The position numbers and the translations under genes were made by a program. DNA of 64,000 nucleotides from Rhizobium lentis (GTDB lineage: Bacteria > Pseudomonadota > Alphaproteobacteria > Rhizobiales > Rhizobiaceae). Position 1 is the first letter of the stretch; each line of letters begins with the position of its first letter. Under the pieces are notes generated by a model. That model was not told where the DNA came from. It saw only the letters and a program-made list of their open reading frames with translations, and made no database searches. Location: assembly GCF_017352135.1 (NCBI RefSeq), contig NZ_CP071455.1, forward strand, positions 682,001 to 746,000, written 5' to 3'. This document shows positions 25,547 to 36,919 of this stretch, piece by piece.

Positions 25547-25562
25547 TGCAATGGTTATGCCA
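25547..25562 (-). promoter_or_regulatory. Sigma-54 (RpoN) -24/-12 promoter for the importer/biuret hydrolase operon
   Basis: On the - strand it reads TGGCAT-AACCA-TTGCA, matching the RpoN consensus TGGCAC-N5-TTGCW with one substitution, with correct -24 GG and -12 GC spacing. It lies 54 bases before the ATG of the BMP-family binding protein. Its edge overlaps a TGTATGCA repeat (25543-25550) that may be a GntR operator. It suggests activation under nitrogen limitation. Confidence 0.75.
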
Positions 25563-25644: not shown

Positions 25645-25671
25645 GTAGGCTAAAAATTATGCATAGCCTAC
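25645..25671. promoter_or_regulatory. Dyad GTAGGCTA-N11-TAGCCTAC in the gntR/importer intergenic region
   Basis: Perfect 8-base inverted repeat (25645-25652 and 25664-25671) between the divergent importer operon and the GntR gene. It is centred about 120 bases upstream of the expected sigma-54 start site, a normal distance for an enhancer-binding protein, and about 155 bases before the gntR ATG. Its spacer contains the palindrome TATGCATA (25658-25665). It may be a regulator site; the cognate protein is unknown. Confidence 0.55.
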
Positions 25672-26811: not shown

Positions 26812-28623
26812 TCATTTCGGAATACTTGCATCCGCTAGGTAGGCGCGCCAGCCTCCTAATTCGGTGATTTCGTGCGCGCCTTCGATTGCGTGAGCCTCGC
26901 AGAGAAAACCTGAGACTTGCGAACCGTCATCGAGCGTTACCTTGCCAATGCCGAGTGGGGCCGGAATGTTCTGCACAAAGCGCCCAAAGGCTTCCGCAGT
27001 GACCTTCCAAACCTCAACTTCGAGGCCATTGCCGTCGAAACCTGGTTCGCGGACGAGGCCTGGCTTCGGCGGGACGGTATCAGGCAAAACGAAGAGACGG
27101 TAATCCGCTGCGGTGCGGCAAGTTTTGATCCGCTTGCCGCCCGGCCCAGTCAGTTCGTGGTTGAGAGGCATACCAGTCAGATGTGCCCCGACAACGACGA
27201 TTGCCACCGAGCCGTCATCGGCCGGCGGGACGCGGCTTGCCTCGGATATTGCCGCCAGGCGGTCCTTCCCCATACCTGCGTTCGACGTCCGATGCATGGC
27301 GTCGGCGAAAGGGGCAAGGGCGTCATCGGTGAAGGCGGGGCCGATCAGAGTCACGCCGCTGGGGAGATGATCATTGGCGTCGAAGCCGGCTGGAACGGCG
27401 ATCGCGGCGCAACCGAGAAGATTGGCGAAGTTGGTGTACCGGCCGAAATGGCCGTTTTTCACTATCGGATCCGCCATCATTTCTTCGACCGTGTAGGTGG
27501 TCGGCGAGGTCGGCAGCATCAGGATATCAACCTTTTCCCATTCCTTCAGGGTCTCTTGGCGCAGTGCTTCAAGCTTGTATCTGCCTTCAAAAGCGGCGAC
27601 TGCGTCGTAGGCTTTGGCGCTCTCGATGATGGTGCGAACCGTCGGCTCGAAGTCTGCACCATTCGTCGCAAGAAAATCCTTCACAGCCGCCAGCCGTTCG
27701 GCAACCCAGGGACCGTTGTAGAGCAGCTCAGCTGCCTGCCGGAACGGCGCGTAGTCGAAGGGAACGATGGTGGCTCCGAGCGAGCGCGCCCTTTCGATTG
27801 CAGCGTCGTAGAGAGCCTCGACGTGCCTGTTGCCGAAGAATTCCCGCTCGGCTCCGTCGAGCACACCGATCCGCAGACCGGAGGCAGGCAGGCTGGAGGC
27901 AACTGCTTTGCGCGAAAACGGATCGGCGGCATCGTAGCCTTCCATCACCTTGCGGATCGCGACGCCGTCGCCGACTGTCGGCGCAAAGACGGTGACGACA
28001 TCGACGCTGCGGCAGGCAGGCACAACCCCGACATTCGGCACCAGTCCCGGTGTCGGTTTGATGCCGACAAGATTGTTGAAAGCCGCCGGCACGCGACCGG
28101 AGCCGGCCGTGTCCGTGCCGAGCGCGAAGCTCGCCAAGCCCGAGGCGACGGCAACTGCCGAGCCGGAACTCGAGCCGCCCGACACATAGTTCTTGTCGAA
28201 GACCGAGCGCGGCGCTCCATAGGGCGAACGCGTGCCGTTGAGGCCGGTCGCAAACTGATCGAGATTGGTCTTGCCGATGACGATCGCGCCCGCGGCCCTA
28301 AGCCTCGCAACGACGGTTGAGTCCTTTTCCGGCTGGTAGGAGAAAGCAGGGCAGGCAGCCGTCGTCGGCAGTCCCGCCACGTCGATATTGTCCTTTACCG
28401 CGAAGGGAATGCCCCAGAGCGGCAGGCTGTTCGGCGCGGGTGCGCGCTGCATCAGTGCCAGTGCTTCGGCCCGCAACATGTCGTCGGGCGTGGGCGTGAT
28501 GAAGATTGCCGGATCGGTCGAGGCGGTCCGGCGGGCAATGACGACCTCCACGATATCGAGCGGGCTTTTGCCTGCCTCATAGGCTGCGCGAAGGCTGGTC
28601 AGATCAAGAATGGTCGGCAGCAT
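26812..28623 (-). CDS. atzF: Allophanate hydrolase
   Basis: 603-aa amidase-signature enzyme that hydrolyses allophanate to two ammonia and two CO2. The amidase domain (about residues 1-440) has the Ser-cisSer-Lys machinery: FAVKDNIDVAGLPTTAACP and YVSGGSSSGSAVAVASG. The C-terminal domain (about 450-603, ending with GGWRAYLADASIPK) is the allophanate-specific extension seen in AtzF-type enzymes of about 600 aa. It follows the biotin carboxylase gene by 3 bases and is the last gene of the riboswitch-controlled operon. It should serve both biuret hydrolase and the guanidine route. Confidence 0.92.
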   Translation of the reverse strand: MLPTILDLTSLRAAYEAGKSPLDIVEVVIARRTASTDPAIFITPTPDDMLRAEALALMQRAPAPNSLPLWGIPFAVKDNIDVAGLPTTAACPAFSYQPEKDSTVVARLRAAGAIVIGKTNLDQFATGLNGTRSPYGAPRSVFDKNYVSGGSSSGSAVAVASGLASFALGTDTAGSGRVPAAFNNLVGIKPTPGLVPNVGVVPACRSVDVVTVFAPTVGDGVAIRKVMEGYDAADPFSRKAVASSLPASGLRIGVLDGAEREFFGNRHVEALYDAAIERARSLGATIVPFDYAPFRQAAELLYNGPWVAERLAAVKDFLATNGADFEPTVRTIIESAKAYDAVAAFEGRYKLEALRQETLKEWEKVDILMLPTSPTTYTVEEMMADPIVKNGHFGRYTNFANLLGCAAIAVPAGFDANDHLPSGVTLIGPAFTDDALAPFADAMHRTSNAGMGKDRLAAISEASRVPPADDGSVAIVVVGAHLTGMPLNHELTGPGGKRIKTCRTAADYRLFVLPDTVPPKPGLVREPGFDGNGLEVEVWKVTAEAFGRFVQNIPAPLGIGKVTLDDGSQVSGFLCEAHAIEGAHEITELGGWRAYLADASIPK

Positions 28624-28626
28624 GGA

Positions 28627-31600
28627 TCAGCATTCCTCCAGAACAACAATGACATCGCCCGCCTTGACGTTTCGTCCGGGGCCGGCGCGCAGGTCGCGGA
28701 CACGGCCTGGTGCATGGGCAGTAACGTTGATTTCCATTTTCATGGATTCGATGATGGCAAGCGTGTCGCCGGCCGCAACCGCTGCGCCCGGCTCGACCAG
28801 CAGTTTCCAGATATTGCCGGGTACGGCGCTGGCAACCCCGAAGCAGCCTTCAGGAATGTCCCCATCCGGGCGTTCGCCGGAGCCTTCGTCGGTGACAAAG
28901 CTGTCGAGGCCCGCCTCCTTCCAGCGCTGGCGCTCGGCATCGAAGGCGGCCTGCTGGCGAGCCTTGAAGTTTCCGATCGAGGCGGCATTGGCCTGCAATT
29001 CCCGCTCATAGGCGGCGTAGGAGAATTCCGCCTCCTCGATCCGGACCGGATAGCCCCCGTGCGGGAAAGCGCCGCGGGCTTCTGCCAGTTCCCGATGGCT
29101 GATCGGGAAGAAGCGGATCTGATCGAAGAAATCCAGCAGCCACGGCTTTTCCCTGGCAAAGACCGGCGTCTGCCGCCAAGTATTCCAGACCTGGATGGTC
29201 CGCCCGAAGAGCTGGTAACCTCCGGGACCTTCCATGCCATAGATGCACATATAGGCACCGCCAATGCCGACGGCATTCTCAGGCGTCCAGGTGCGGGCGG
29301 GATTGTACTTCGTCGTTACCAGCCTGTGACGCGGATCAACCGGTGTCGCCACCGGCGCACCGAGATAGACGTCGCCGAGGCCGAGCACCAGATAGCTCGC
29401 GTCAAAGACGATGTCGCGGACCGCCTGTTCGTCCGCCAGCCCATTGATGCGGCGGATGAACTCGATGTTGTCGGGGCACCAGGGCGCATTTGGCCGCACG
29501 AGTTCCTGATACTTGCGCATCGCAAGTTCCGCATCCGGATCGTTCCAGGAAAGCGGCAGATGCATAATGCGGCTCGGCACGGTGACATCCTGTGCCGCCG
29601 GCAGGCTGACCTCGATCTCGGCCAGCAGACCGAGCAGGCGTTTTCGGGTGAGCATCGTGCCGTCGTAGTGAATCTGTAGCGAGCGGATGCCGGGGGTGAG
29701 ATCAATGATGCCGGGCAATCCCGCTTGCGAGACGGCCTTCATCAAGAGATGCACCCTCAGCCGCAGGGCGATATCAAGCGTCATCGGCCCGTATTCGACC
29801 AGCAGATTGTCATCGCCCTGGCGGCGGTAGACGACCGAGACCGGTCCATCCTCGCGCTTGCCGATGACAGGCGAACCTGCTTCCTCCTTCGCGCGATGCA
29901 CGACCGGACCGGCGATGGGGTCTTCGGGCCGCGCGACGGGATGGAAGCGGATACGATCACCCGGCTTGAACTGGCCCATCTTCCATTGTTCCTCGCGGGC
30001 GATCACCGCCGGGCAGACGAAGCCGCCGAGGCTCGGCCCGTCCGGCCCGAGGATGATCGGCATGTCACCGGTAAAATCGATCGCGCCGATCGCATAGGCA
30101 TTGTCATGCAGATTGGAGGGATGGAGCCCAGCCTCGCCGCCATCGCTGCGCGCCCATTTCGGCGCAGGGCCGATCAGGCGAACGCCGGTGCGTGCGCTGT
30201 TGAAATGCACCTCGTAACTGGTCGAGAACAACGTCTCGATATCGCCGTCCTGAAAGAAATCAGGCGCGCCATGCGGACCATAGACAAGGCCGACATCCCA
30301 TTCGCCCGTCAGCTCGGCCGGCTCGGTCGCGCGCTTAGGCGCTTCGGTGGCGACCTGGCGAGCGAGATGAAGGACATGGCCGGTCTTCAGCGTGCCGGTG
30401 GCATTGCCGCCGAACTGGCCTAGGCCGAAAGTGGCACGCGAGCCGAGCACGACGGGAGCGGCAAAACCGCCCGCCACGGCCAGATAAGCTCGCTGTCCCG
30501 GGCCATCGATGCTGCCGATCGAGAGGGTCTGCCCGGCGCGGATGGTGACGGCCTCGCCATGCGGCAATTTCTCGCCATCGATGCTCATCGCCATCCTTGC
30601 GCCGGCAAGAGCAACAACCGTATCGGTATCGAATTTCAGCACAGGCCCGGACACCGTCAGCTCGAGTGCTGCGACCGTGTCGCCATTGCCGACAAGGCGG
30701 TTGGCATGGCGGAAGGAACGCTCGTCCATTGGGCCGCTCGGCGGTACGCCGACATACCAGAGGCCAAGCCGGCCGGGCAGTTCCTGGATACTGGATTGGG
30801 CGCCCGGCGCGATGACTTCGATAACGTCAGGGACGACGGTAAAGCCGCGCAACGCAGTCGTCGCGACCTTGCCGCTGGCCAGAAGCTCGGAGCCGGCGAT
30901 GGCCTTGAGATAATCGAGATTGGTCTCGATACCGGATATCGACGTGCCGGCAAGAACTGTCTTCAGCTTTTCGATCGCCGCGGGACGATCTTCGGCGAAA
31001 ACGATCACCTTGGCGAGCATCGGATCGTAGAAGGGTGTCACTTCAGTGCCGGTCTCGATCCAGCCGTCGATGCGTGCGTCTTCGGGAAAGACGACCTCGG
31101 TCAGCAGACCGGCGCTTGGTCGAAAATCGGCATGCGGCATCTCGGCATAGACCCGCACTTCGATTGCGGCTCCTTTCGGCTGAAGAACTTCGGCGCCCGA
31201 GAGCACATCCTCGCCCGCCGCCTGACGGATCATCCATTCGACAAGGTCGATACCGAAGACGGCTTCGGTAACGGGATGCTCGACCTGCAGGCGGGTGTTC
31301 ACCTCGAGGAAATAGAATTCCTCGCGCTGGGGATCATAGATGAACTCGACGGTGCCGGCGGATTCATAGGAAACCGCGGCACCAAGATCGACGGCCGCCT
31401 TGTGCAGGCGGGCGCGGGTTGCAGCGGAAAGGCCGGGGGCGGGGTCTCCTCGACCACCTTCTGGTTTCGCCGCTGCAGCGAGCAGTCGCGCTCGCCGAGC
31501 GCGATCACCTTGCCCTTGCCATTGCCGAAGATCTGCACCTCGACATGCCGGGCCTCGGCTACAAAACGCTCGATATAAACGCGCGCATCGCCGAAGCTTG

Positions 31601-32165
31601 CCCGTGCGGTGCGCTGCACGCTTTCGAAGGACGCTTTCAGGCTTTCGGCATCACCGCAAAGCTGCATCCCGATGCCGCCGCCGCCGGCCGTGCTTTTCAG
31701 CATGACGGGATAGCCGATCGTCTCGGCCGCCGCGAGTGCTTCATCGGCGCTCGAAAGCAGACCGGTGCCGGGCAAAAGCGGCACGCCGCTCGACCTGGCG
31801 AGTTCACGCGCCGTATGTTTCAGGCCGAAGGCAGAGAGGTGCTCAGGCCGCGGGCCGATGAAGGCAATGCCTTCGGCGGCAAGGCGCTCGGCGAAACCGA
31901 TATTTTCCGAGAGGAAGCCATAGCCTGGATGTGCGGCCTCAGCGCCTGTCGCCTTGCAGGCGGCGATGACCGCATCGACGTTGAGATAGCTTTCGCTGGC
32001 CGGCGCCGGCCCGAGACGCACCGCTTCATCAGCCATCATCGCCGGCTTGGCGAAACGGTCGGCATCGGAATAGACGGCGACCGAGGCGATGCCCATCCGC
32101 CTCAGGGTCTTGATGACCCGGATGGCGATTTCGCCCCGGTTGGCGATCAGGACTTTCTTGAACAT
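28627..32165 (-). pseudogene. Guanidine/urea carboxylase (biotin-dependent), interrupted by a -1 frameshift
   Basis: Start ATG at 32165 ([17 protein letters not shown]). The biotin-carboxylase domain reads well to KVVEETP (about 31445), then shifts frame inside a C-rich run on the - strand near 31431-31445. The second frame continues [31 protein letters not shown], the AHS1/AHS2 carboxyltransferase halves and a C-terminal biotin carrier domain (biotin lysine in IIESMKMEI). One restored base gives 1179 aa, the usual length. Its place behind a guanidine-I riboswitch and beside the two DUF1989 genes argues for guanidine as substrate (product carboxyguanidine). As written only about 260 N-terminal residues are in frame; a sequencing error is possible. 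Confidence 0.85.
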
Positions 32166-32167
32166 GC

Positions 32168-32821
32168 TCAGTCCTCGCCATCCCAGATCAGCACCCGGAT
32201 CGGCGTCGGATCGAAGCCGTTGCAGGGATTGTTGATCTGCGGGCAGTTGGAAATGACGCAGAGCACGTCCATCTCGGCGATGAGCTCGACATAGTCGCCG
32301 GGCGCGGAAATGCCGTCGACGATCGTCATTTCGCCGTTGGGCTTGATCGGCACGTTCATGAAGAAATTGATGTTGGGCACGATGTCGCGCTTGCCCATGC
32401 CGTGTTTCGAAACTTCGAGCACGAAATTGTCGCGGCAGGCATGCAGATATTTCGTGCCGTGGCCGAAGCGGACCGTATTGCTCTCGCAAGAGCAGGCGCC
32501 GGCGGATGTGTCATGGCGGCCGCAGCTGTCGGCGGTCATTGTCAGCATGACATTGCCTTCGTTCGACATGATCTTCGTGCCGATGCCGATATAGGCGGCA
32601 CCTTGCATGCGCATCGTATCCTGATTGGAATAGCGCTCGGAGAAATCATCGGCACGGTAAAAGAGCGTGTCGATCGCCTGCTGACCATAGCTGTCCTCGA
32701 TGCGGATCGTCTGGCCCTTGCGCACGAGGCCGGACCACGGGGCTTCGGCCGCGATGAAATGATCCTGCGCGGCATTCTGCAGGCTGCGGGCAGGCGAGGT
32801 CTGGATGAAATCGGACATCAT
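32168..32821 (-). CDS. Urea carboxylase-associated protein 2, probable carboxyguanidine deiminase subunit
   Basis: 217-aa DUF1989-family protein. It carries conserved cysteines and histidines ([19 protein letters not shown]) that could bind a metal, and [15 protein letters not shown]. Proteins of this pair, long called urea carboxylase- or urea amidolyase-associated, have been shown in other bacteria to act together as carboxyguanidine deiminase, producing allophanate. It sits 7 bases after its partner gene and 2 bases before the carboxylase gene. Confidence 0.87.
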
Positions 32822-32828
32822 TCTCTCC

Positions 32829-33650
32829 TCAGGCCTGCATCAGGGCGTTGTTTTCGAAACCGCGAACGGCTTCGGCCGTCGCCGTGCGGCAGAGGTCATC
32901 GGCCGCCGGGATTGCCGCCTTGTAGCGGGTGATGACAACTCGCTTCGGCTGGTATGTCGGATCGGGATCGAGCGGATGCGGACAATTAGAAAAGGCGACC
33001 AGCATGTCCATCTCGGCGCGCAGTTCGACATAGTCACCACTGTTGGTGCGCTTGCCCTGCCAGGCGAAACCGCCCGCTTCCGCAAGGCGGACGGGGGCGA
33101 AGAGATTGAGGATGCCGGGAATATCACGCTTGTCGAGGCCGAGCTTAACGGCGGCAAGGATCAGGTTGTCGCGGGTGTTGCGCGTTTTCTCGCCGGGATA
33201 TTTGGCGGCGTTCGACGCAGCAGTCGAGCCGCCCATCAGGCAGTCATGGGCGCCCGAACTATCCTCGATCATCGAGAACATCACGCGGCCCATATCAGAG
33301 AAGATCACCCGCCCCTTGCCGAGCGCCGTCGTCCATTGAACCTTGGCGGTGTCAACCAGATTGATCCGCTCGCTCGTATCCTCGGCATTCCAGGCGACGA
33401 GCGCCACGGTGGAATTTCCCTCGCCCTGGTCGATGCGGATTGCCTCGCCGCGCAGAAGCTTCGACGACCAATACCAGCCGCCCGGAACGATCTCCTGGTG
33501 GATGATCGCGGCGGCTTCGATGACCGGCGCCGGCAGCGGGCTTGGGCCGGGCAGGGCCTTGGGCGCGAATTCCAGACCCTTCTTCTGATGCTCCTCGTAG
33601 CGCGCGCGATTGGCGGCGATCTCTTCGGGGGAACGTCTCACATGCATCAT
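32829..33650 (-). CDS. Urea carboxylase-associated protein 1, probable carboxyguanidine deiminase subunit
   Basis: 273-aa DUF1989-family protein, partner of the 217-aa gene downstream. It has the family features GGWYWSSKLLRGEAIRI, GRVIFSDMGRVMFSMIEDSSGAHDCLMGG and LNLFAPVRLAEAGGFAW. With its partner it is expected to convert carboxyguanidine to allophanate and ammonia. The ATG overlaps the stop of the ATPase gene by 4 bases, so transporter and enzyme genes are translationally coupled. Confidence 0.87.
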   Translation of the reverse strand: MMHVRRSPEEIAANRARYEEHQKKGLEFAPKALPGPSPLPAPVIEAAAIIHQEIVPGGWYWSSKLLRGEAIRIDQGEGNSTVALVAWNAEDTSERINLVDTAKVQWTTALGKGRVIFSDMGRVMFSMIEDSSGAHDCLMGGSTAASNAAKYPGEKTRNTRDNLILAAVKLGLDKRDIPGILNLFAPVRLAEAGGFAWQGKRTNSGDYVELRAEMDMLVAFSNCPHPLDPDPTYQPKRVVITRYKAAIPAADDLCRTATAEAVRGFENNALMQA

Positions 33651-34471
33651 AGCGTCTCTCCTGATGGTGCCAGGTCGTCCCGGCTGTGCCCCAGGGAAGC
33701 GACCGGGCCGTCCCGGTCGGGGCTGAAGATCGAGGACTGGCCGGCAAGGCGCGGCGGCCAGATGGAAATATCCTTGGTGATGGTGGCGCCGTAACGCTCC
33801 TTCTCCTCCGGCCGGTCGCGGCGGCGCTCGAAGGCGACCACACGGCTTGCCAGCGTGAAGGCCTCGCGCATGTCATGGGTGACCATGACGACGGTCATCT
33901 GGGTTTCGTGCCAGAGCCGCTTCATCAGCGTGTGGACTTCGGCGCGAATACCGGGATCGAGCGCGCCGAATGGCTCGTCGAGTAACAGCACCTTCGGCTT
34001 CATGATCAGCGCCTGGGCAAGCGCCAGACGCTGCTGCATGCCGCCGGAAAGCTGCGCCGGATATTTGCGCTCCGAACCGGCGAGCCCAACCTCGGCGATC
34101 AGCTCGCGTGCTTCCTCAATGGCGTTGCGGCGCGCAGCGCCGAAAAGCCTGGCCTTGTAGCGCGCAGCGGAAAACTCCTTGCCGAGCAGCACATTGCCGA
34201 GCACCGTCAGGTGCGGAAAGACGGAATAACGCTGGAAGACAACGCCGCGGTCCGGCCCCGGCTCCGACGGCAGAGGCTCGCCGTCGAGCAGGATCTTGCC
34301 TTTCGTCGGCTGTTCTTGGCCGAGCAGCATGCGCAGGAAAGTGGTCTTGCCGCAGCCCGACGGGCCGACCAAGGCGACGAAGGCACGCGAGGCGACGGTC
34401 AAGGACACGTTTTCGAGCACGATCTGGTCGCCATATTCCTTCCAGACCCTTTCGATCTTCAGTTCGCTCAT
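33647..34471 (-). CDS. ABC transporter ATP-binding protein, nitrate/taurine type (guanidine operon)
   Basis: 274-aa ATPase with GPSGCGKTTFLR (Walker A), LSGGMQQRLALAQAL (signature), LLLDEPFGAL (Walker B) and the switch histidine in VMVTHDMREA. It belongs to the SsuB/TauB class and has a C-terminal extension of about 50 residues after the core. It overlaps the permease gene by 4 bases. It powers the uptake system placed behind the guanidine riboswitch. Confidence 0.9.
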   Translation of the reverse strand: MSELKIERVWKEYGDQIVLENVSLTVASRAFVALVGPSGCGKTTFLRMLLGQEQPTKGKILLDGEPLPSEPGPDRGVVFQRYSVFPHLTVLGNVLLGKEFSAARYKARLFGAARRNAIEEARELIAEVGLAGSERKYPAQLSGGMQQRLALAQALIMKPKVLLLDEPFGALDPGIRAEVHTLMKRLWHETQMTVVMVTHDMREAFTLASRVVAFERRRDRPEEKERYGATITKDISIWPPRLAGQSSIFSPDRDGPVASLGHSRDDLAPSGETL

Positions 34472-35286
34472 GCCTGCTTCTCCAGCTCCGACCAGGGGAA
34501 GACGGCGACACGCAGGCGATCGAGCAGGGCGTTCATGACCACCGCGAGGAGCGTGATCCAGACGACATAGGGAAAGATGATATCCATCGAGAGATAGCGG
34601 CGGACGAGGAAGATGCGGTAGCCAAGGCCGGAATCCGAGGAGATCGCCTCGGCCGCGATCAGGAATAGCCAGGCCGGGCCGAGCTGCAGCCTGAGGCAGG
34701 TGATCAGCCGCGGCAGGATTTGCGGCAGCACGACACGCAGACCGATCTGCCAGGAGGAGCCGCCAAGCGTCTCCGCCTTGACGATCTGCTCACGCGGCAG
34801 TTCCAGCGCCTTCAGCGCCAGATCGCGGATCATCGTCGGCGCAACGCCGATGACGATGAGGGCGATCTTCGATGTTTCGCCAAGCCCCATGACAATGAAG
34901 AGGATCGGCAGCAGCGCCAGCGGCGGCACCATGGAAATGACGGCGATGAACGGGGCGAGCAGCGCCCTGAGATAGGGCAGCATCCCGATCAGCATGCCGA
35001 TAACGAGCGCGATCGCAGTCGAGATGCCGAGTCCGGAAAGCAGGCGGACCAGGCTCGCGCCGGTATCCGACCAGAGCAGAAATTCGCCGGTGCGCTGGTC
35101 GGCGACAAAGGCCAAGCGATTGATCGCATCGGCAAAGCCGGCAAGGCTCGGCAGAAGCTTGTCATTGGCGTTTTCCGCCAGCCGCGCGGCCGAGCCGAAG
35201 GCATAGGCAAGGGCGAGCAGCACGAAGGGCAGCAGCATCAAGGCGAACTGCGCGCCCCGGCTCGGCCTCGTGTTGATCCAACGCAT
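34468..35286 (-). CDS. ABC transporter permease, nitrate/taurine type (guanidine operon)
   Basis: 272-aa permease with about six helices; the EAA-type coupling loop is visible in the second half (LPREQIVKAETLGGSSWQIGLRVVLPQILPRL). It is a member of the BPD_transp_1 family, SsuC/TauC class. It lies 58 bases after the binding-protein gene and overlaps the ATPase gene by 4 bases. The substrate is inferred from the riboswitch and the enzymes to be guanidine or a guanidine-like compound. Confidence 0.9.
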   Translation of the reverse strand: MRWINTRPSRGAQFALMLLPFVLLALAYAFGSAARLAENANDKLLPSLAGFADAINRLAFVADQRTGEFLLWSDTGASLVRLLSGLGISTAIALVIGMLIGMLPYLRALLAPFIAVISMVPPLALLPILFIVMGLGETSKIALIVIGVAPTMIRDLALKALELPREQIVKAETLGGSSWQIGLRVVLPQILPRLITCLRLQLGPAWLFLIAAEAISSDSGLGYRIFLVRRYLSMDIIFPYVVWITLLAVVMNALLDRLRVAVFPWSELEKQA

Positions 35287-35344: not shown

Positions 35345-36418
35345 TCAGAGCGAACTGTCGGCGGCGGCCTTCATGTATGTCTCGGTGAAGCGCAGCTTCA
35401 CATTGCCGGCATCGCCCAGGACCTTGCCGTCCGGCATTTCGATGCCGATGACGTCAGCGGATGGCGCGCCGTTGCCGAGCAGTCCCTTCTCGAAAAGGAA
35501 GTTGCGCACCAGATCCATGGTTTTCGGCAGATTGGGGGAGGTTGTGAAGGCAACCGCGTCAGCCGGCTTGTCGAAGAGCTTGGTGGCGGCAAGCTGGGTC
35601 TCGAACCCGGCGAGATTTGTGCCCGAAGCCGAACCCATGGCCTCGCGGGCTGCCTTGCCCTCGGCGGTATCGGCCTGCAGCAGTGCGGCCGTCTCATACC
35701 AAATGCCGGCGAGCGCCTTGCCGAAGTTCGGATTGTCCTTCAGCACGCCACTATTGGCGACCATCAGATCGATGATTTCGCCCGGCACCTGCGAGCTGTC
35801 GAAAACCTTCTTGGCGGAGGGATCTTCGAGGATGGTGGAGACCAGGGGATTCCAGGTGACGACGGCGGTGACGTCTGGCGTCTTGTAGGCTGCGACCATG
35901 TCCGCATCCGACGTGTTGACCACCTTCACGTCGCGCTCCGTCAACTTGATGCTCTCGAGCGCGCGGGCAAGCAGGTAATGCGAGACCGAGAACTCGACGA
36001 GATTGACGTTCTGGCCCTTGATATCGGCAAGGCTCGCCTTGTCTTTCAGGATCACGGCGTCATTGCCGTTCGAGAAATCGCCGACGATCACAGCGGTCGT
36101 GTCGACCCCACCGGCGGCGGGAATCGACAATCCGTCCATATTTGTGAGCGTCACGGCATCGAAGGCACCGGCCGTGTATTGGTTCATGGACTCGACATAG
36201 TCGTTGAACTGCGTGACCTCGATCTTGATGCCGTATTTGTCAGCCCATTTCTTGACGATGCCGTGGTCGGCCGCATAGCCCCAGGGCATCCAGCCGACAT
36301 AGATGGACCAGGCGACCTTGAAATCGGTTTTCGGTTCGGCCTTAGCGACTGGGCTAATGCCGAGCGCCAGCGAAGCGGAAAGGGCGGCGATGGAAAGGAT
36401 CTTCGAAAAAGTCTGCAT
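35345..36418 (-). CDS. ABC transporter substrate-binding protein, nitrate/taurine type (guanidine operon)
   Basis: 357 aa from the ATG at 36418 (MQTFSKILSIAALSASLALG), which gives a clean signal peptide ending about AKA-EP. An in-frame TTG at 36445 would add nine basic residues and sits in a hairpin. It is a SsuA/TauA-like periplasmic binding protein (WSIYVGWMPWGYAADHGIVKKWADKYG). It is the first gene after the guanidine-I riboswitch; its Shine-Dalgarno AGGGGA lies in the 3' arm of a hairpin, so translation may be riboswitch-controlled. Confidence 0.9.
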   Translation of the reverse strand: MQTFSKILSIAALSASLALGISPVAKAEPKTDFKVAWSIYVGWMPWGYAADHGIVKKWADKYGIKIEVTQFNDYVESMNQYTAGAFDAVTLTNMDGLSIPAAGGVDTTAVIVGDFSNGNDAVILKDKASLADIKGQNVNLVEFSVSHYLLARALESIKLTERDVKVVNTSDADMVAAYKTPDVTAVVTWNPLVSTILEDPSAKKVFDSSQVPGEIIDLMVANSGVLKDNPNFGKALAGIWYETAALLQADTAEGKAAREAMGSASGTNLAGFETQLAATKLFDKPADAVAFTTSPNLPKTMDLVRNFLFEKGLLGNGAPSADVIGIEMPDGKVLGDAGNVKLRFTETYMKAAADSSL

Positions 36419-36425
36419 TGAAATT

Positions 36426-36450
36426 CCCCTTTTGCTTTTCTTCAAAAGGG
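36426..36450 (-). promoter_or_regulatory. Hairpin sequestering the Shine-Dalgarno of the guanidine operon
   Basis: On the - strand CCCTTTTG and CAAAAGGGG are complementary across an eight-base loop. The 3' arm contains the AGGGG Shine-Dalgarno 8 bases before the ATG at 36418. This is a plausible expression platform for the riboswitch just upstream, acting on translation; no U-run follows, so transcription termination is less likely. Confidence 0.55.
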
Positions 36451-36491
36451 ATCGGCAATGACCATCGTGCCGCCAATCCCTTGGCTAACGA

Positions 36492-36600
36492 GGTCTCCCG
36501 GGCTTTTGTCCCGCCGTGCACCCGGCAGGATGTCTCCCCCGCCGGTGGTGGCTCTCGGACCAGTCGCGCTTCAGAAAAGCACCGGAACCCTAGCCACCAA
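36492..36600 (-). promoter_or_regulatory. Guanidine-I (ykkC class 1) riboswitch
   Basis: The - strand shows the conserved elements of the guanidine-I aptamer in order: P1 5' strand GGTGGCTAGGGTTCCGG, then ACTGGTCCGAGAGCCACC closing P1, then the 3' conserved block GGCGGGACAAAAGCCCGGGAGA (only part need be read: GGACAAAAGCCCGGGAGA). P1 pairs GTGGCT with AGCCAC. The aptamer lies 74 bases before the ATG of the transporter gene and immediately after a sigma-54 promoter. Ligand guanidinium would switch on the importer, deiminase, carboxylase and allophanate hydrolase genes. Confidence 0.9.
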
Positions 36601-36614
36601 CTCAGCCGTTAACC

Positions 36615-36630
36615 TGCAAGCGGTGTGCCA
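36615..36630 (-). promoter_or_regulatory. Sigma-54 (RpoN) -24/-12 promoter for the guanidine operon
   Basis: On the - strand TGGCAC-ACCGC-TTGCA is a full match to the RpoN consensus TGGCAC-N5-TTGCW. Transcription should start near 36604, that is, almost exactly at the 5' end of the riboswitch. This implies control by nitrogen status (an NtrC-type activator) added to guanidine sensing. Bases 36631-36919, up to the end of soxR, hold no gene that I can see. Confidence 0.85.
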
Positions 36631-36919
36631 CGTTATAAGTCATTGATTTATTTAGCCGTGGCTCCTCGACAAATTGACACTGTGTACACTTTGGAGCAAT
36701 TGCTTAATTTTCCACCATCTCTGGGGTGAAGGATGTCGGCGCTAGGACTGCAAGTCCTGGTGCAACCAATAGTCCTATAACGAAGCACAGAGTGAAGCTC
36801 GCATTTGGCTGAGCCACTATCGTGCGCGCGTCGCTAAGTCGCCGCTCGGCACTCGCCTATGTCGCCCAAATATTGTCGCGAAGATCGTAAGATCGTCCGC
36901 CGTACCGTTGGAGGCTCAT

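Follow-up and report, generated by a model that had tools for sequence, protein, structure and literature searches.

Guanidine carboxylase operons of enterobacteria are among the closest described counterparts of the locus analysed here, with the same enzymes and importer, a Guanidine-I riboswitch in front and a Guanidine-II riboswitch farther down (PMC12186494). The locus, an operon for guanidine import and mineralisation with its leader, lies on the minus strand of a 64,000-nucleotide (nt) stretch of the Rhizobium lentis genome (NCBI RefSeq GCF_017352135.1, contig NZ_CP071455.1, positions 682,001–746,000), referred to below as the window and numbered from its first base. In enterobacteria Guanidine-II precedes the carboxylase gene, whereas in the Rhizobium operon it precedes the deiminase genes and sits inside the ATPase gene (PMC12186494). 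The terms RpoN, sigma and NtrC return no hits in the available part of that review's text (PMC12186494). Comparison of the locus with its relatives suggests, with a probability of about 0.82, that the operon is under serial control by NtrC/sigma54 and by riboswitch.

RNA-seq of Burkholderia cenocepacia H111 found the genes I35_7283–7286, annotated as a urea-carboxylase-related ABC transporter and a urea carboxylase, down in an ntrC mutant (log2 −6.0 for I35_7286), and 95% of the top 150 H111 genes were also sigma54-regulated (PMC5491218). This NtrC-dependent cluster holds a homologous importer and ‘urea carboxylase’, a comparison made at the level of genes; the study reads the cluster as serving urea use, and guanidine and riboswitch are absent from the accessible portion of its text (PMC5491218). 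The predictions of a computational survey for sigma54 include 102 COG3665 genes, of which 59% bore the name urea carboxylase; in the part of its text at hand, guanidine is absent and riboswitch occurs once, in a reference title (PMC12316311). Cyanobacterial gifB resembles the Rhizobium operon in joining a nitrogen regulator on the promoter to a leader riboswitch, but the regulator is NtcA, which represses, the riboswitch is a glutamine riboswitch and the gene is another one (PMC6316151). Tandem riboswitch gates likewise form a two-input Boolean function, but from two RNA sensors instead of the promoter plus RNA considered here (PMC5912903). No report that connects a guanidine riboswitch with sigma54 or NtrC was found in the literature searched, most subscription journals being outside its coverage, and the available portions of seven further articles link guanidine to neither sigma54 nor NtrC (PMC3616915, PMC12421884, PMC5979394, PMC12508155, PMC8390497, PMC12930504, PMC2864571). 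The parts are already known, and it is for the coupling of promoter and riboswitch that this literature gave no earlier report.

Promoter and Guanidine-I aptamer

The promoter region contains the following elements.

36615..36630, minus strand: sigma54 −24/−12 promoter TGGCACACCGCTTGCA, a perfect match at a position conserved in relatives
36604, minus strand: predicted transcription start, placed by the −24/−12 convention, at aptamer model position 1
36493..36604, minus strand: Guanidine-I riboswitch aptamer (Rfam RF00442; score 93.4 bits, cut-off 63; E = 1.3e-15; model positions 1–107)

A preliminary description of the window had claimed a perfect TGGCAC-N5-TTGCA that would start transcription at about 36604, on the 5′ edge of the aptamer. 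The motif is indeed present at 36630–36615, with its GG and GC 10 bp apart, and TGGCACACCGCTTGCA is the sole mismatch-free match to TGGCAC-N5-TTGCW in the window. By convention the W of TTGCW sits at −11, so the predicted +1 falls on 36604, the first aptamer base and RF00442 model position 1, in agreement with the proposed start. With up to two mismatches the motif is not rare (25 matches in the window against 29.8 expected); alone it is therefore weak proof, position and conservation carry the weight, and the position was tested in relatives.

Guanidine-I aptamers were searched in overlapping samples of the family (297 genomes, 53 with a match), the order (397, 101) and the phylum (398, 43), and the above-cutoff matches comprised 139 alphaproteobacterial and 40 other pseudomonadotal aptamers. 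A site was called where, in the 80 nt before the aptamer, at least 10 of 12 positions agreed and both GG and GC were kept. Called sites precede 112 of the 139 alphaproteobacterial aptamers, 106 of them at 8–16 nt, against 0.84 on average and at most 5 in 200 dinucleotide shuffles. Among other Pseudomonadota the site lies farther out, at 33–62 nt, and was called for 30/40 aptamers (shuffle mean, 0.29; maximum, 3). Lowering the threshold to 9 places a site at 8–16 nt in 116/134 aptamers of the family plus order. An above-cutoff aptamer occurs in 21 families of the order, and 19 of them contain at least one called site. Called sites in the family plus order number 111 and represent 98 different 16-mers, and the columns flanking them are little conserved (0.01–0.34 bits, 97 genomes), the conservation within the sites coming partly from selection. 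Eighty named loci, which overlap the unnamed set and were not added to its counts, include three without an aptamer by pattern (L238, L264, L272); the site is present in 74 of the other 77.

Thirteen below-cutoff matches were also fetched, ten from the family search and three from the order search (L190–L192), other below-cutoff order and phylum matches being excluded. A site was called in L049, L050 and L190, and in neither L055 nor the nine loci (L051–L054, L056–L058, L191, L192) where a low-scoring ykkC-like RNA precedes an EamA-family gene. These nine loci have neither a sigma54 site (0/9) nor an enhancer box (0/9). Their gene context is that of the orphan ykkC subtype 2d, whose ligand was unknown in a 2020 review (PMC7266159), and the nine RNAs fit that subtype. 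The subtype is marked by an EamA or TauE gene downstream; the window aptamer instead precedes the gene for an importer binding protein.

Efflux loci served as a second control. A phylum search for Guanidine-II gave matches in 71 of 349 genomes, and of the 30 given as loci and read, 21 have an SMR gene at most 600 nt downstream (57–100% identity to one NCBIfam SugE, above cut-off); the other nine precede operon genes. None of these 21 SugE-type loci, home-family members L273, L282, L284 and L289 included, carries a sigma54 site, whether over 120 or over 300 nt, and none has an enhancer box scoring at least 10 (best, 9.9). Since the site stands on assimilation operons and on none of the controls, the promoter accompanies assimilation rather than the efflux and EamA loci examined, in keeping with the earlier proposal that guanidine would be used here as a nitrogen source instead of merely detoxified.

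Two groups of Guanidine-I loci have other neighbours. In L113 and L149 (both genome G470), Guanidine-I and sigma54 sites precede open reading frames (ORFs) that by eye resemble peptide-type ABC transporter genes and possibly import guanidino compounds. In L110 and L120 the aptamer precedes ORFs resembling, by eye, arginase-family guanidinases, with no called sigma54 site.

Upstream enhancer box and its probable activator

The preliminary description had named no activator site; a candidate for one lies upstream of the promoter.

36699..36719, minus strand: NtrC-like enhancer box of the TGC-N11-GCA type, matrix score 12.3, left half degenerate

Relative to the predicted start its centre falls at about −105, which is 78 bp upstream of −26. 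Alphaproteobacterial upstream regions were made non-redundant by shared 12-mers (185 cut to 168), and TGC-N11-GCA occurs in 74 of the 168 against a shuffle mean of 21.8 (maximum, 29) and 22–32 for ten other spacings. A matrix grown from this palindrome (consensus TGCCcAAtaaTTgGGCA) scores at least 9 in 148/168 regions and in 6–9/168 shuffled ones. Most sites scoring at least 11 (105/127) fall 47–94 bp ahead of −26, spaced at intervals of roughly 10 bases, and their helical phasing (R = 0.54 at 10.5 bp; jittered positions mean, 0.08; maximum, 0.28) is inflated by relatedness. When trained on other families, the matrix reached at least 10 in 84/100 regions of the home family and the named loci, which include some genera outside that family (shuffled, 3; reversed, 2); the converse test gave 49/68 (shuffled, 1; reversed, 1).

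Within the home genome, which encodes ntrC and NtrX, the matrix matches targets on which it was not trained, namely glnB-glnA (15.9) and glnK-amtB (17.2 and 13.7), the P-II identity of glnB and glnK having been checked and the partner genes glnA and amtB assigned by eye. The box is thus common to known NtrC targets, the window copy scoring only 12.3. Further matches stand at a NarK-like gene (12.2; TIGR00886 scores 217.7 bits, short of the 311.7 cut-off) and at an NMT1_2 binding protein (17.4), a probable component of a nitrate-type importer; both are probable nitrate transporter genes. The genome holds 12 exact TGGCAY-N5-TTGCW sites, four of which have a box of at least 12 and eight of which have none above 8.6; the reversed pattern also gave eight matches, so the eight box-poor sites may be chance.

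The enteric NtrC consensus is TGCAC-N7-GTGCA. At 8/10 or better it occurs in 19 of the 30 called loci outside Alphaproteobacteria (in shuffles 7.2 on average and 13 at most; with six other spacings 4–11), and in the alphaproteobacterial set it alone reaches at least 9/10 in 15/168 regions against 1–3 shuffled, the trained matrix performing better. Given the matrix matches at the gln genes and the pattern outside Alphaproteobacteria, the box was assigned to NtrC, which is most likely the activator acting at the upstream palindrome. A near-dyad at about 36760, TGCAC-N6-TTGCA, had been considered as the NtrC site, but with a spacing one base out it gave way to 36699–36719.

The genome encodes two rpoN genes, on contigs C1 and C5, and six strong PF00158 matches. 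Contig C5 also carries a NifA-like activator (judged by eye), as in symbiotic rhizobia. Just past the guanidine operon is a second sigma54 site, TGGCATAACCATTGCA (25547–25562, minus strand), with an NtrC-like box above it at 25645–25665 (score, 13.8; centre 92 bp upstream of −26). It precedes genes for a Bmp-family binding protein and permeases, perhaps another nitrogen-scavenging importer.

Leader switches and operon genes

Downstream of the aptamer, the leader can form alternative hairpins.

36460..36495, minus strand: hairpin A of the expression platform, overlapping the aptamer 3′ end and present in the minimum-energy fold
36448..36480, minus strand: hairpin B, mutually exclusive with A and C
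36427..36450, minus strand: hairpin C, in which CCCUUUU pairs with the ribosome-binding region AAAAGGGG

With L136 and L245 dropped as too divergent, 55 distinct leaders were compared. The cells are paired in 99.7% (hairpin A), 100% (B) and 96.9% (C) of cases, with no two-sided change in A, one in B and a two-sided change in two cells in C, so that covariation in the platform is thin and conservation high. For hairpin C a +1 slide fits equally well, and a one-base slide is indistinguishable. Fold energies are −28.6 kcal/mol for A plus C and −15.1 kcal/mol for B. From these folds the Rhizobium platform, A plus C against B, looks translational, with C hiding the ribosome site and B freeing it.

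The direction could also be the reverse, hairpin B being a terminator and Guanidine-I acting by transcription only. Such a reading would accord with the usual description of Guanidine-I as a transcriptional ON switch (PMC12186494) and with the 4–7 U that mostly follow hairpin B, and it deserves serious if tentative consideration. Against it, some leaders (L133, L234, L242) have only a short or interrupted stretch of U, a terminator scan found none, and with B as the OFF state the alternative, A plus C, would hide the ribosome site.

A second aptamer, not part of the preliminary description, lies farther down the operon.

33670..33719, minus strand: Guanidine-II aptamer (RF01068, 40.6 bits against a cut-off of 32), at the 3′ end of the ABC ATPase coding sequence

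It consists of two hairpins with ACGR loops and ends about 20 nt before the UAAP1 start. The two-hairpin core is present at the ATPase/UAAP1 junction in 83 of 92 loci, or 81 of the 89 distinct junctions that these loci represent. In Rhizobium it overlaps coding sequence; in L249, L253, L258 and L259, where the ATPase gene ends earlier, it is intergenic. Because the element is kept at the junction whether coding or not, its retention suggests conservation as RNA. A homologous operon in Rhizobium johnstonii 3841 (locus L328, plasmid pRL9) likewise has both switches, together with the promoter and the box.

The operon genes are arranged as follows.

35345..36418, minus strand: ABC transporter substrate-binding protein (TIGR03427, 552 bits, above cut-off)
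34468..35286, minus strand: ABC permease (PF00528)
33647..34471, minus strand: ABC ATPase (PF00005), overlapping RF01068 at its 3′ end
32829..33650, minus strand: UAAP1 (DUF1989; TIGR03425, above cut-off)
32168..32821, minus strand: UAAP2 (DUF1989; TIGR03424, above cut-off)
28627..32165, minus strand: guanidine carboxylase gene (biotin carboxylase, urea/guanidine type; TIGR02712 in two ORFs)
26812..28623, minus strand: allophanate hydrolase (TIGR02713, 781 bits)

By the literature, UAAP1 and UAAP2 are the subunits of carboxyguanidine deiminase. The published signature of guanidine carboxylase is Asp at Kluyveromyces lactis position 1330 together with Asp1584 (PMC11410670). In an alignment with the urea enzyme of K. 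lactis, D409 of the carboxylase 3′ ORF falls on Asn1330 and a further Asp on Asp1584, both counted by eye. A feature that the preliminary description had also not recorded is that the carboxylase gene of this genome is divided between two reading frames (about 31300–32165), while it is one ORF in 33/33 relatives; the split may come from an error in sequencing or from a recent loss.

Alternatives, control logic and meaning

Several observations weigh against serial control of the operon as proposed, or limit it. The genomes are related, so the counts are not independent. No site was called for 27 of the 139 alphaproteobacterial aptamers; ten of these have near-consensus sites (L003, L005, L010, L014, L083, L133, L142, L143, L152, L160) and 17 are real exceptions. 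The exceptions are L008, L024, L037, L081 and L146; aptamers of one family that are the second in their locus and precede UAAP1 (L071, L116, L124, L129); loci where no operon gene was recognised (L070, L110, L120, L147); and four of the five class-level loci (L178, L182, L188, L189). Outside Alphaproteobacteria 10/40 loci were uncalled (L086, L105, L106, L109, L173, L176, L180, L181, L185, L186), and the alphaproteobacterial matrix does not transfer there (1/30 at 10 or more). The window box is itself weak on one side, at 12.3, against 20.4 at the same place in L002 of the same genus, and the phasing period is not sharp (R = 0.53–0.56 across 10 to 11.5 bp). A translational platform departs from the usual transcriptional description of Guanidine-I. 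The efflux controls are Guanidine-II loci, the sample holding no Guanidine-I efflux locus (no SMR gene lies within 600 nt after any Guanidine-I locus searched), and the Burkholderia comparison extends to genes only. The split carboxylase may impair the guanidine pathway in this isolate. Some leaders, moreover, keep an NtrC-like box without a sigma54 site (L024, 16.5; L037, 17.3; L008, 14.7; L189, 12.5; L146, 12.3), so sigma54 is not indispensable.

Among Guanidine-I assimilation leaders, the box without the site is seen in L024, L037, L008/L236, L146, L268 and L189, possibly as a change from sigma54 to sigma70 activation. Rhodobacter NtrC works with sigma70, and an activator of that type would fit two of the named exceptions, the Rhodobacter metagenome-assembled genome L268 and Sinirhodobacter L271.

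The sigma54 promoter might be real and its activator another enhancer-binding protein, such as NtrX, NifA or a DctD-like protein, given that the six strong sigma54-activator matches in the genome include NtrX. This is improbable: all six lie on contigs other than the operon's, the box has the 17-bp geometry of the NtrC consensus, its matrix matches glnB-glnA, glnK-amtB and the two probable nitrate transporter genes, and the Burkholderia ntrC mutant data point the same way. Less probable still is main transcription from another promoter, either sigma70-type or by read-through from soxR, with the −24/−12 site minor. Read-through is possible, since soxR, which is read in the same direction, ends about 300 bp upstream with no terminator predicted between it and the operon, and some relatives lack the site; yet a simple consensus scan upstream of the operon found no sigma70-type match, and the fixed spacing, the presence of called sites across the order (19/21 families) and the little-conserved flanks speak against it. 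A chance match beside an ordinary riboswitch is a negligible prospect: two-mismatch matches are expected about 30 times in the window, but neither 112/139 against 0.84 by shuffles nor 0/21 in the efflux controls is what chance would give.

Under NtrC/sigma54 and riboswitch control in series, nitrogen limitation would place phosphorylated NtrC on the enhancer about 105 bp upstream and activate sigma54-RNA polymerase at −24/−12. The RNA would begin at the first bases of the Guanidine-I aptamer, with hardly anything preceding the sensor. Bound guanidine would then turn the leader ON for the transporter genes, presumably by holding the aptamer 3′ end so that hairpin B is favoured and the ribosome site freed, and Guanidine-II, lying within the last part of the ATPase gene, probably controls whether the enzymes are translated. 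The net logic would be nitrogen shortage AND guanidine. This AND gate, which the preliminary description had put forward from the promoter and aptamer, is well supported by comparison, through the sigma54 promoter at fixed spacing, the NtrC-type enhancer, the nitrogen-assimilation operon behind them and the efflux and EamA controls that lack such a promoter. In this Rhizobium and most of the aptamer-bearing relatives examined, the RNA would start at the aptamer or shortly ahead of it, and expression of the operon probably requires both a shortage of nitrogen and the presence of guanidine.

On balance, a broader generalisation is also favoured, if with much less assurance: that guanidine assimilation in much of Pseudomonadota is hard-wired to the NtrC/sigma54 regulon, with a start at the aptamer itself in Alphaproteobacteria, with Guanidine-II checking for the ligand again ahead of enzyme synthesis (three serial gates), and with detoxification operons lacking the nitrogen gate, so that the promoter would tell guanidine as food from guanidine as poison.

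The physiological meaning of guanidine for bacteria was called elusive in a 2025 review (PMC12186494). A promoter of the nitrogen-shortage type on most of the import-and-degrade operons read, and on none of the tested efflux loci, is genomic evidence of guanidine as nitrogen food in those bacteria, and it suggests that some ‘urea carboxylase’ genes in published NtrC/sigma54 regulons are really for guanidine. The operon would represent a natural promoter-plus-riboswitch AND gate.
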